64,000 bases of DNA. Source: Anaerosoma tenue (lineage in GTDB: Bacteria > Actinomycetota > Coriobacteriia > Anaerosomatales > Anaerosomataceae). Location of the stretch: positions 372,001 through 436,000 of the forward strand of contig NZ_JALNTY010000001.1 in NCBI RefSeq assembly GCF_023161965.1, read 5' to 3'. Position 1 is the stretch's first letter. Each line of letters opens with the position of its first letter. Positions 13,426 through 17,777 of the stretch are shown here, piece by piece. Position numbers and translations under genes: made by a program. The notes under the pieces are model-generated. The model ran no database searches and was not told the DNA's origin. It worked only from the letters and a program-made list of their open reading frames with translations.

Positions 13426-13441
13426 TGTGATACTGCTCACA
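13426..13441. promoter_or_regulatory. CRP-type operator (TGTGA-N6-TCACA)
   Basis: The sequence is a perfect TGTGA-N6-TCACA palindrome, the consensus for CRP-family regulators including actinobacterial Crp. It ends 9 bases before a TAGGAT -10-like element (13451-13456) and 59 bases before the glycosyltransferase start. The overlap with the expected -35 region would suit repression or an activator-dependent promoter. Confidence 0.6.
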
Positions 13442-13499: not shown

Positions 13500-14951
13500 A
13501 TGCCCGAGGAAGATGCACCTATCCGACGCACCCCGTACGAATGGGGACGCCTGATACTCACCAACATCGTGGTCGTGGGGATTCCCACGCTCGTCTACTA
13601 CTTGCTGCGGGTGAGAGGCTACGACCTGTTCTGGCTGCACATCACCATCGCGGCCGTCTTCATGCTCACCGCACTCGAGCTCATCTGGGAAGCGCTCGTG
13701 ACGGTCGCCCGGCGCAGGGCGGCGGCCGATCCCGACGCGCGCGGCGTGTTCCACTGGGTGGCCCGTATGATGGGATTCGGCGGTGGCCGGCTCAGGCTGG
13801 CCGACCTGCCACCCGTCCCCCCGGTGACGTTCATAGTGGCCGCCTTCCTGCCCAACGAACGGCACATCATACTCGCCACCATCAGACACCTGCTGTCCGA
13901 GGTGGAGCGACCTGCGGCGGGGTTCGAAGTCATTCTTGCGTACAACACTCCGACCGATCTCCCGGTGGAGAAGGAGCTCCGTCGTCTCGCCGACGGCGAC
14001 CCGGCGTTCCGTCTTCTCCGCGTGGAGGGGAGCGAGTCGAAGGCCGAGAACGTGAACGCGGCCCTTGCGGTCGCCACCGGTGAAGTCACGTGCATCCTCG
14101 ACGCCGACCATCACCCGTGCCCCGACTGCCTCGCACGCGCGTGGCGCTGGCTCCACAACGGCTACGACGTGGTGCAGGGGAGAAGCGTCATCAGCAACCA
14201 CGACGTGAACTTCCTCACACGGATGATCGCCATCGAGTTCGAGCAGATCTACTCGGTCAGCCATACGGCGCGGTCGCTGACACTGGACACCGCGATATTC
14301 GGCGGATCCAACGGATACTGGCGCACCGAGGTCCTCCGTGAGATCGGGTTCGATGTCACGATGATGACCGAGGACATCGACGCGTCATCCAGAGCGATCC
14401 TCTCCGGATACAGGATCGCGCATGACAGAAGCATCATCTCCGAGGAGCTGGCTCCCACGACCTTCCACGCGTTCTGGTGTCAGCGGAAGCGCTGGGCTCA
14501 GGGCTGGCTGCAGGTCAGTCTTAAGCACCAGCTGGCCTTCTGGAAGACTCGCTACCTCACGCTCTCGCAGAAGGTCCACTGGACCTACCTTCTCCTGTAC
14601 CGAGAGTTGTACCCGATCGTCACCCTGCAGATCTTCCCCGTGATCTTCAGCCTTCTCATGTACCAGGGTTCGATGCCGATGCGAACACACTGGTTCTTGC
14701 TGCTGAGCACCGTCATCACCCTGGCGAGCGGACCGATCGCGACCGTCTCGGCGGTACACAACGCACGCGGGCGCTACCCGTCCTGGTACGGCGTCGTGTA
14801 TGCCGTTTGCATCATCTGGTTCGTGATGGTCAAGAACGCGATCGTGCTCATCGCCATCTACGACCAGTTGTTCAAGAAGACAGACTGGGTCGTCACACGA
14901 CGGGACATCTCGCACGAGCTCGAGGCAGAGCTCGCTGAGGCTCCTGCCTGA
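13500..14951 (+). CDS. Membrane family 2 glycosyltransferase
   Basis: The 483-residue protein begins with two membrane helices (about residues 18-37 and 44-62). A GT2 catalytic domain follows with DADHHP, MTEDID and QRKRWAQGW, the D,D,D,QxxRW set of processive polysaccharide synthases. Three or four C-terminal helices end the chain. The polymer is unknown; the second GT2 gene 560 bases downstream is closer to poly-GlcNAc synthases. The ATG at 13500 follows a G-rich Shine-Dalgarno sequence. A perfect CRP-type site lies in the promoter region. Confidence 0.82.
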   Translation: MPEEDAPIRRTPYEWGRLILTNIVVVGIPTLVYYLLRVRGYDLFWLHITIAAVFMLTALELIWEALVTVARRRAAADPDARGVFHWVARMMGFGGGRLRLADLPPVPPVTFIVAAFLPNERHIILATIRHLLSEVERPAAGFEVILAYNTPTDLPVEKELRRLADGDPAFRLLRVEGSESKAENVNAALAVATGEVTCILDADHHPCPDCLARAWRWLHNGYDVVQGRSVISNHDVNFLTRMIAIEFEQIYSVSHTARSLTLDTAIFGGSNGYWRTEVLREIGFDVTMMTEDIDASSRAILSGYRIAHDRSIISEELAPTTFHAFWCQRKRWAQGWLQVSLKHQLAFWKTRYLTLSQKVHWTYLLLYRELYPIVTLQIFPVIFSLLMYQGSMPMRTHWFLLLSTVITLASGPIATVSAVHNARGRYPSWYGVVYAVCIIWFVMVKNAIVLIAIYDQLFKKTDWVVTRRDISHELEAELAEAPA

Positions 14952-15044
14952 CATACGACACGACTGTCGCCGTGAGGCATCCCCGGGACTCGCGATCAGC
15001 CCTCGGTTGACAGAAGTCGTCCCTTTGCCTATCCTCGTCGGGTT

Positions 15045-15060
15045 TGTGCGTTTCGTCACA
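15045..15060. promoter_or_regulatory. CRP-type operator (TGTGC-N6-TCACA)
   Basis: This is one base from the CRP palindrome and lies 59 bases before the pgaD-like start. It resembles the perfect site in front of the other glycosyltransferase gene, which strengthens both calls. A weak TACGCT -10-like element begins 2 bases after it. Confidence 0.45.
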
Positions 15061-15119
15061 CTACGCTGTCCGGCGGTAGCCCGCTGCTCAGCGACAAGGG
15101 GATCCGAGGGGGAGACACG

Positions 15120-15515
15120 ATGCGAGTGATCCGTCTGATCGTGCAGATCATTCTGGCCGCGATGGGCTGGGTCCTGTTCGCGTGGCTTTGGTGGCGCGCG
15201 ATCCAGTACGGTCCCACGGAGGTGCACCTGCGGGGCACTCTGATCGTTGCGATCATCGATCTCGTCATCGTGTCCGCCACCATCCTGTGGATCATCTGGA
15301 ACAAGGACATCTACCGCCGGAAGGGGGCGCGGACCACCGTGCCTCCGGTCGAATTCGACTACGCGGTCGATGCACTCGGCACTCCCGTTCATGTACGCGT
15401 GCCGGGCGATGGCAGCGCCCGTTCCATCGTCATAGACATCGCTGATGACCGGGGACGACCCCTCAAGGTGTTCACGAGCGCAGAACCGGCAGCCGTGGCG
15501 GTAGGTGAGGCCTGA
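15120..15515 (+). CDS. PgaD-like membrane accessory protein
   Basis: The 131-residue protein has two membrane helices (about 5-27 and 40-62) followed by a soluble tail that starts with NKDIYRRKG. Size, topology and direct coupling to a PgaC-like synthase match PgaD, which in E. coli forms the c-di-GMP-sensing interface with PgaC. Sequence similarity to PgaD is weak, so this is a context-assisted call. The stop overlaps the next start as TGATG. A GGGGG Shine-Dalgarno-like run precedes the ATG. Confidence 0.55.
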   Translation: MRVIRLIVQIILAAMGWVLFAWLWWRAIQYGPTEVHLRGTLIVAIIDLVIVSATILWIIWNKDIYRRKGARTTVPPVEFDYAVDALGTPVHVRVPGDGSARSIVIDIADDRGRPLKVFTSAEPAAVAVGEA

Positions 15516-16774
15516 TGCTCGGTCTCATTCAGTCCTTCGCTGATCACCCCGTGTACGACGTGATGATGGTCTTCTTCGCCATGTACCCGCTGTTCACCTC
15601 GATCATGTGGGCGGTCACGGCCATCATCAGCGCCTTCAGACGAGAGAGAAGCTCCAAACTCGACTTCTACGAGGTGCCCGAAGAGGCTCTGCCCAGTATC
15701 AGTGTCGTGATACCTGCACACTCCGAGGGAAGGATCATCGCCAGCACCCTCGAGAGGATCCTCGAACTCGACTATCCCGATCCGCAGGTCATTGTCATAA
15801 GCGATGGCTCTGACGACGACACGGTGGAGAAGGCGCATGCGTTCCTGACCGACGAGCGCGTGACCGTGATCGACAAACGCGTCAACGAGGGCAAGGCGAT
15901 GGCCATCAACGATGCCATGGTGTTCGCTAGCGGAGAACTCGTGCTGGTGATGGACGCAGACGCCTATCCGGAACCCGATGCGCTGCGGTGGATGGTGCCT
16001 CACTTCATCCGCAACCCGCGTCTCGCCGTGGTCACGGGGAACCCCCGGGTACGCAACACGGACAGGCTGCTCGGCAAGATCCAGGCGGTGGAGTTCTCGT
16101 CGATCATCTCTCTGCTGAAACGCGCCCAGGTCGTCTGGGGGCGGATCATGACCGTTTCCGGCGTCATGGCGCTCTACCGCAAGAGCGCCCTCCAGGATGT
16201 CGGTCTGTTCGTCCACGACTGCGCCACCGAAGACATCGCCACGTCCTGGGAGTTCCAGCGCAAGTTCTACGATATACGGTACGAGCCGCACGCCATGGCG
16301 CGGATGCAGGTACCGCCGGGACTCCGGTCCTTGTGGAACCAACGCCTGCGTTGGGCACGGGGTCTGGCGCAGGTGCTCAGACGCAATGTCGATATCTGGA
16401 AGAGCTGGAAGAACCGACGGCTGTTCCCGGTCTACGTGGAAGCGGTGCTGTCCATCGCCTGGGCGTACTGCTTCGTGATCCTCACCAGCATCTGGATCCT
16501 CAGTTGGGTCCTCGGTGCGCCGCTCCTCGGCGCGACCCCTGTGCCCACCTGGTGGGGCATGCTGATCGGCACAGCAGCGCTCTTCCAGCTGCTCGTAGGC
16601 GTACTCATGGATCGCCGGTACGACCCGTCAGTCACCAAATACTACCTGTGGGCGGCGCTGTACCCGCTGATCTACTGGATCCAGATGTCGATCATCACCG
16701 TGATCGCAACGCCTTCAGGGATCCTGCGACCGAAAGGTCCTGGTACCTGGAGGACGCCGCGTACCTCCGAATGA
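15515..16774 (+). CDS. Poly-beta-1,6-GlcNAc synthase-like glycosyltransferase (PgaC/IcaA type)
   Basis: The 419-residue GT2 protein has an N-terminal helix (about 15-40) and then the catalytic motifs DGS (97-99), DAD (147-149), TED (238-240) and QRLRW (276-280). Three C-terminal helices end in YPLIYWIQMS and GTWRTPR, a pattern characteristic of PgaC/IcaA. It probably polymerises UDP-GlcNAc into an exopolysaccharide and exports it. It is coupled to the PgaD-like gene by TGATG. No deacetylase (PgaB/IcaB) or outer-membrane porin is present, the latter being expected of a Gram-positive-type envelope. Confidence 0.75.
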   Translation: MLGLIQSFADHPVYDVMMVFFAMYPLFTSIMWAVTAIISAFRRERSSKLDFYEVPEEALPSISVVIPAHSEGRIIASTLERILELDYPDPQVIVISDGSDDDTVEKAHAFLTDERVTVIDKRVNEGKAMAINDAMVFASGELVLVMDADAYPEPDALRWMVPHFIRNPRLAVVTGNPRVRNTDRLLGKIQAVEFSSIISLLKRAQVVWGRIMTVSGVMALYRKSALQDVGLFVHDCATEDIATSWEFQRKFYDIRYEPHAMARMQVPPGLRSLWNQRLRWARGLAQVLRRNVDIWKSWKNRRLFPVYVEAVLSIAWAYCFVILTSIWILSWVLGAPLLGATPVPTWWGMLIGTAALFQLLVGVLMDRRYDPSVTKYYLWAALYPLIYWIQMSIITVIATPSGILRPKGPGTWRTPRTSE

Positions 16775-17219: not shown

Positions 17220-17777
17220 TTACGGTCGCACGAGCTCACTGTAAGCGCCGCCTCCGGCGACCCACCCTTCGTTCCCGTCAACGTCCCGCACCTGATACCA
17301 CCCGTTCGACGCGTCGAGGTAGACGAGCAGCTGTCCGCCATCAAGGGTCGTGATCACCTCTGACGCCGTTGTGGGCTCTGCACGCAGATTGAGCCCCTGC
17401 GTCTTCACCCGCACGTATGGCTCCCCGGCCGGGATCGAGATCCCGTCCGGGCCGATGATGGGTTCCGGCCCCTCGGGCGTGACGACGGGCTCCTCGGTCC
17501 CGGTCTCAGTCCCCGACGCGTCCGGTGTGCCGGTCGGCTCGACGGTCCCTGTGGCCTCCACTGCCGGCGTCTCCCCGGTCTCTGCCTCGAGACGGAACTC
17601 GCTCCAGAACGAGAGCGCCACCGTGATCACGGCGATCAAAGCTATCCACGGCACGACTACCCGCAATATCCGCACGATGATGTTCTGCTCCGGCGCATCG
17701 TGCCAGTCGTGCGGTGGCGGCCCGTAGGCATGCGGATCGGCGCCCACTCCGTCGTCCCACTCGTCCTGGTGTCTCAT
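17220..17777 (-). CDS. Membrane-anchored bacterial SH3-domain protein
   Basis: The 185-residue protein has a charged cytoplasmic N-terminus, one helix (about 33-55) and a Thr/Glu/Pro-rich linker of simple composition (about 65-105). A C-terminal SH3_3-type domain follows (GLNLRAEPTTASEVITTL, then NEGWVAGG). Such domains bind peptidoglycan or peptides at the cell wall. It overlaps the upstream membrane-protein gene by four bases. Its partner and role are unknown. Confidence 0.75.
   Translation of the reverse strand: MRHQDEWDDGVGADPHAYGPPPHDWHDAPEQNIIVRILRVVVPWIALIAVITVALSFWSEFRLEAETGETPAVEATGTVEPTGTPDASGTETGTEEPVVTPEGPEPIIGPDGISIPAGEPYVRVKTQGLNLRAEPTTASEVITTLDGGQLLVYLDASNGWYQVRDVDGNEGWVAGGGAYSELVRP

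Follow-up and report, generated by a model that had tools for sequence, protein, structure and literature searches.

Two overlapping genes at positions 15120–16774 of the window, the whole 64,000-nt stretch of Anaerosoma tenue DNA analysed here, probably encode a stripped-down membrane machine for a sticky biofilm polymer of the PNAG kind. We read them as a translationally coupled, minimal two-gene poly-β-hexosamine synthase, most likely of the poly-GlcNAc type, in which the small membrane protein P0002 would be the required partner of the synthase P0003, and assign this reading a probability of about two thirds. Its observed basis comprises the open reading frames and their overlap, the fixed order of small gene and then synthase, the near-strict co-occurrence of the two genes, the PgaC-type motifs and the lack of PF01522 and PF01757 matches. 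From these observations we infer the sugar, its linkage, the contact between P0002 and P0003 and the need for P0002.

According to this reading, P0003 would use UDP-GlcNAc to build the chain and extrude it across the membrane through helices of its own, and P0002 would be the small membrane subunit that P0003 needs, in the role of PgaD or IcaD. Being made first, P0002 would already be present when the synthase is made. For control, the unit would depend on a CRP-family protein acting on transcription; a switch that binds c-di-GMP, as E. coli PgaC has, is probably not involved.

Gene organisation

The three open reading frames described in the earlier note were recovered, all on the forward strand: P0001 (13500–14951; 483 aa), a resident processive-type GT2 that is not a PgaC and stands outside the pair, P0002 (15120–15515; 131 aa) and the PgaC/IcaA-type poly-hexosamine synthase P0003 (15515–16774; 419 aa). 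The TGA stop codon of P0002 and the ATG start codon of P0003 share base 15515, which confirms the TGATG overlap behind the proposed coupling, and the gene order is indeed reversed compared to E. coli pgaCD, where pgaD comes after pgaC. P0001 and P0002 are separated by 168 bp. Within this gap, a sigma-70-like promoter for P0002–P0003 was predicted at 15007–15035 on the forward strand (TTGACA-17-TATCCT, 10/12 match; one found versus a shuffle mean of 0.3). The Rfam search gave no matches, and the plasmid search returned only matches of <60% identity.

The synthase and its likely polymer

Processive GT2 enzymes are characterized by the signature D, DxD, TED and QxxRW. The corresponding motifs are present in P0003 as D97, DAD147, TED238 and QRLRW276, with hydrophobic stretches at residues 16–38 and 303–398 on either side of them. 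Compared to the PgaC model TIGR03937, P0003 scored 403.3 bits (E 1.1e-120) over model positions 2–404 of 407 and residues 18–415 of 419, and the second-best family reached 84 bits. The curated cut-off of 422.3 bits was missed by 19 bits, a shortfall that counts against a poly-GlcNAc-type synthase. The AlphaFold model of P0003 was unusable (pLDDT 47).

PNAG systems normally include a deacetylase. Searching the whole genome (99.06% complete) for the PgaB/IcaB deacetylase domain PF01522 gave no match, compared to matches in 11 of 14 control genomes; the previously claimed lack of a deacetylase hence extends genome-wide for PF01522. Acyltransferases of the IcaC type (PF01757) were likewise without a match genome-wide, with 10 of the 14 control genomes matching, and no PgaA export porin was seen among the open reading frames of the window. 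The missing deacetylase counts against a polymer of the poly-GlcNAc type.

Related loci with the small gene first provide context. In the MAG AUK263, the pair is followed by the gene of a TPR protein that matches PgaA (TIGR03939, 1.5e-16, far under the cut-off; barrel domain PF21197, 0.011, under the cut-off). In G162, a genome of the same phylum, genes for a small protein, a PgaC homologue and an IcaB-like deacetylase are located in a row (L055, 1282–4091; TIGR03933, 9e-47, under the cut-off). The PgaA-like gene in the former and the IcaB-like gene in the latter tie the small-first arrangement to PNAG-type systems. The AUK263 pair and its PgaA-like gene (L035, 2848–8949) are divergent from genes for an exosortase, a DUF3485 (EpsI-like) protein and a PEP-CTERM protein.

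The foremost alternative is that P0003 is a PgaC-related synthase of a polymer other than β-1,6-GlcNAc, as suspected for Listeria Pss. The consulted sections on Pss describe a composition that is hard to predict, with the authors favouring neither cellulose nor PNAG (PMC4125290). PgaC-like GT2 enzymes can, judging from this case, make other polymers, which we counted against the poly-GlcNAc-type reading. The genome without PF01522 and PF01757 and the position of P0003 just below the PgaC cut-off are consistent with such a polymer, but the 403 bits over nearly the full PgaC model and the PgaA-like or IcaB-like genes adjoining relatives of the same arrangement argue against it, and we consider it unlikely.

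The small membrane protein P0002

P0002 possesses two strong hydrophobic stretches, modelled as helices at residues 2–30 and 34–67 (pLDDT 63), and a C-terminal part. P0002 shares two features with PgaD, a pair of membrane helices and a gene beside pgaC; a PgaC homologue adjoins the small gene in 11 of 11 cases. The curated models gave no support: the best PgaD score was 14.1 bits with TIGR03940 (cut-off 31.45), and there was no Pfam PgaD match. PF13994 matched nothing genome-wide and over 396 genomes of the phylum produced three weak matches, none above the cut-off.

Remote similarity was assessed with hhalign, using the 11-row alignment of the P0002 family and a shuffle control that took in four real sequences. 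The PgaD of G065 was aligned with 69% and E 4.5e-5, a result equalled by none of 150 local shuffles, and E. coli PgaD with 14% and E 1.9e-3, equalled by two of 150. The comparison with A. baumannii PgaD was no better than shuffles (72/150 equal), and for the Tetragenococcus protein in the IcaD position, a small protein encoded downstream of an IcaA-like gene, 111 of 150 shuffles were equal. Together with the failed PgaD models, these two non-matches count against our preferred explanation.

Residues W17, W24, W57, N61 and R71 of P0002 are invariant in all 11 homologues. W57 and N61 align with W71 and N75 of E. coli PgaD, of which N75 is presumably a c-di-GMP residue. The best hit in a PDB sequence search had an E value of 1.1. 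None of the 100 Foldseek matches reached E ≤ 0.001, a result that is uninformative because the P0002 model had a pLDDT of only 63. The earlier designation of P0002 as PgaD-like finds footing only in its position and a remote profile similarity and failed with every curated PgaD model; as far as sequence comparison goes, the P0002 family may at best be a remote relative of PgaD. For rearranged pga loci in which pgaD had gone undetected, the available portion of one report carries the authors' suggestion that such pgaD may be too divergent (PMC7112194).

Phylogenetic distribution and known systems

Homologues of P0002 were found in 5 of 69 genomes of the order and in 6 of 396 genomes of the phylum, window genome included, and one further small-first pair was found in AUK263. 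These three sources together yielded 11 loci, with the window genome counted once. In all of them the small gene is located directly 5′ of a PgaC homologue on the same strand, so the idea of the reversed order as a local oddity or inversion was discarded. Because the order is kept in 11/11 loci across families of the phylum and in AUK263, small-subunit-first is an old arrangement common to them. Sequence searches easily miss the partners of PNAG synthases, and a small-first family with a fixed neighbour offers a way to find them.

Conversely, P0003 homologues were found at E ≤ 1e-60 in six of the 69 order genomes, the five P0002-bearing ones and G065, and at E ≤ 1e-40 in seven of the 396 phylum genomes, the six P0002-bearing ones and G204. 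Fisher tests of the co-occurrence gave 5e-7 for the order and 1e-12 for the phylum, with relatedness ignored in both. The match in G204 (L074, 1099–3795) is a long fusion of deacetylase-like and GT2 domains with a further N-terminal part, by inspection a separate architecture. G065 belongs to the same order and has a pgaC-pgaD locus, whose PgaC homologue is 41% identical to P0003. It differs from the window pair by the canonical C-then-D order, by keeping R222 and by a PgaD that passes TIGR03940. In a tree of 15 rows, the three canonical synthases grouped together (99/98), as did the five close small-first synthases (100/99); deeper forks were weaker. In G003, a member of the same genus, the pair lies beside uraA and the contig ends 517 bp past it. 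G054 and G061 carry the pair at another site, which is common to both.

Among the known systems, E. coli pgaCD resembles the pair in that a PgaC-type GT2 and a small two-helix membrane protein are encoded by adjacent genes, with the E. coli pair being c-di-GMP-activated. The window pair differs in its reversed order, the lack of pgaA and pgaB beside it, the exchange of R222 for valine and the placement of P0002 outside PF13994 and TIGR03940. Staphylococcal icaADBC likewise contains a Gram-positive PNAG synthase pair, but icaA precedes icaD there, whereas the small gene comes first here, and proteins with PF01522 and PF01757 are missing from this genome.

In Streptomyces, the membrane-protein gene matA is translationally coupled to the PgaC-like GT2 gene matB, and the consulted parts of two papers describe both as required for PNAG (PMC4391728, PMC5972031). 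An actinobacterial PNAG locus with the small partner encoded first has therefore already been published. The likeness consists of the membrane-protein-first order, the coupling and the actinobacterial host; MatA and P0002 are likened by arrangement alone. Unlike MatB, in which the GT2 is fused to a CE4 deacetylase, P0003 is a GT2 only, and its genome is without a PF01522 deacetylase. The portions of the literature covered by our search contained nothing on a small-first family in Coriobacteriia. Cultured members of one lineage of that class, OPB41/Anaerosomatales, have been reported for the first time (PMC9686372).

Possible control by c-di-GMP

PgaC Arg222 is tabled as the c-di-GMP site of PgaC/PgaD in the accessible part of a review, where staphylococcal PNAG synthesis is said not to need c-di-GMP (PMC10333796). 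R222 of E. coli PgaC aligns to V206 of P0003. Among 14 aligned synthases, this position is occupied by V in all five members of the close clade, the window protein included, by T in G351, by A in G189 and by R in the other seven, four small-first and three canonical. This reading comes from the alignment only, because the P0003 model was too poor. The valine makes E. coli-type activation of P0003 by c-di-GMP doubtful, so that the expected E. coli-type interface lost its footing; another site might serve instead.

A second alternative, a classical c-di-GMP-activated PgaCD whose genes are merely inverted, must be judged by the same residues. The 11 GGDEF domains encoded in the genome would suit it, as would the invariant W57 and N61 of P0002 in alignment with W71 and N75 of E. 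coli PgaD. However, the arginine is replaced throughout the close clade as well as in G351 and G189, and it persists in the three canonical pairs and in the four remaining small-first ones, which makes a classical system rather improbable here. A lineage in which PgaC has naturally lost its c-di-GMP arginine would serve as a natural experiment on PgaC activation.

CRP-type boxes upstream of both units

A palindrome without mismatch to TGTGA-N6-TCACA, TGTGATACTGCTCACA, is located 5′ of P0001 at 13426–13441, and a second one with a single mismatch, TGTGCGTTTCGTCACA, at 15045–15060, just 3′ of the predicted −10 element of the pair. A perfect copy of the latter is found at the corresponding promoter in G003. 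The notion of similar operators before P0001 and before the pair is thus upheld as CRP-type palindromes that recur in relatives. Within the window alone, three sites at ≤1 mismatch do not exceed the chance level, since 21 of 100 shuffles yield as many. Among 13 orthologous upstream regions (8 of P0001 and 5 of P0002), five have an N6 box with ≤1 mismatch, three of them perfect, compared to a shuffle mean of 0.067. None of 2000 shuffles reached five, a figure that is not a probability because the regions are related; chance was rejected on this result as the source of the recurring boxes.

The N6 boxes precede P0001 in the window genome, G021 and G011, and P0002 in the window genome and G003. 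An N5 form precedes P0001 of G015, and a box with a spacing of 7 occurs in none of the 13 regions. CRP-type boxes are absent at three of the five pair promoters of the order and at six of six distant ones, which we counted against the preferred explanation. Genome-wide, the perfect pattern occurs at five places and its backward control at none. The position of the box at 15045, just past the predicted −10, would suit repression. CRP-family proteins are encoded in the genome, one of which (L063) contains the recognition-helix stretch SRETASR, which we take to resemble E. coli CRP. Transcription of the pair seems to be controlled by a CRP-family protein, as suggested by boxes that recur in close relatives.

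Tentatively, the pair might belong to an unnamed small-first PgaC family whose partner escapes all PgaD models, in which one lineage lost the c-di-GMP arginine and control moved to CRP-family transcription, giving a deacetylase-free, c-di-GMP-blind matrix of the poly-GlcNAc type.

The adjacent glycosyltransferase P0001

P0001 has the same catalytic motifs as P0003 but scores only 90 bits to TIGR03937. Its orthologues, 69–77% identical, occur in eight of the 69 order genomes, including the window genome. In the seven others the pair is not beside the gene, and the same far-side genes recur in 7/7 (names by inspection). A uraA-type permease is located directly 5′ of the orthologue in six of the seven and is absent there in G015. 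G003 had no P0001 match at E ≤ 1e-60. While eight genomes carry P0001 and five the pair, two have both (Fisher 0.099), and in one of these, G015, they are on different contigs. Because its orthologues occupy the same locus without the pair, P0001 is an independent resident gene that is adjacent to the pair here, by chance or recent linkage, and the earlier suggestion of different or hetero-polymers made by two synthases is unsupported.

A single exopolysaccharide locus, with both GT2s and P0002 acting together on a hetero-polymer or on two polymers of one matrix, would fit the same-strand adjacency of P0001 and the CRP-type box before each unit, but is very unlikely given the largely independent distribution, the split contigs in G015, the low TIGR03937 score and the 168 bp with a predicted promoter between P0001 and P0002.

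In its own right, P0001 is a conserved GT2 kept at one locus in the eight genomes. Downstream of the pair, a minus-strand block of conserved small genes is located at window positions 17220–17777, and one of their products contains an SH3-type stretch (TIGR04211, 3.3e-7, under the cut-off).
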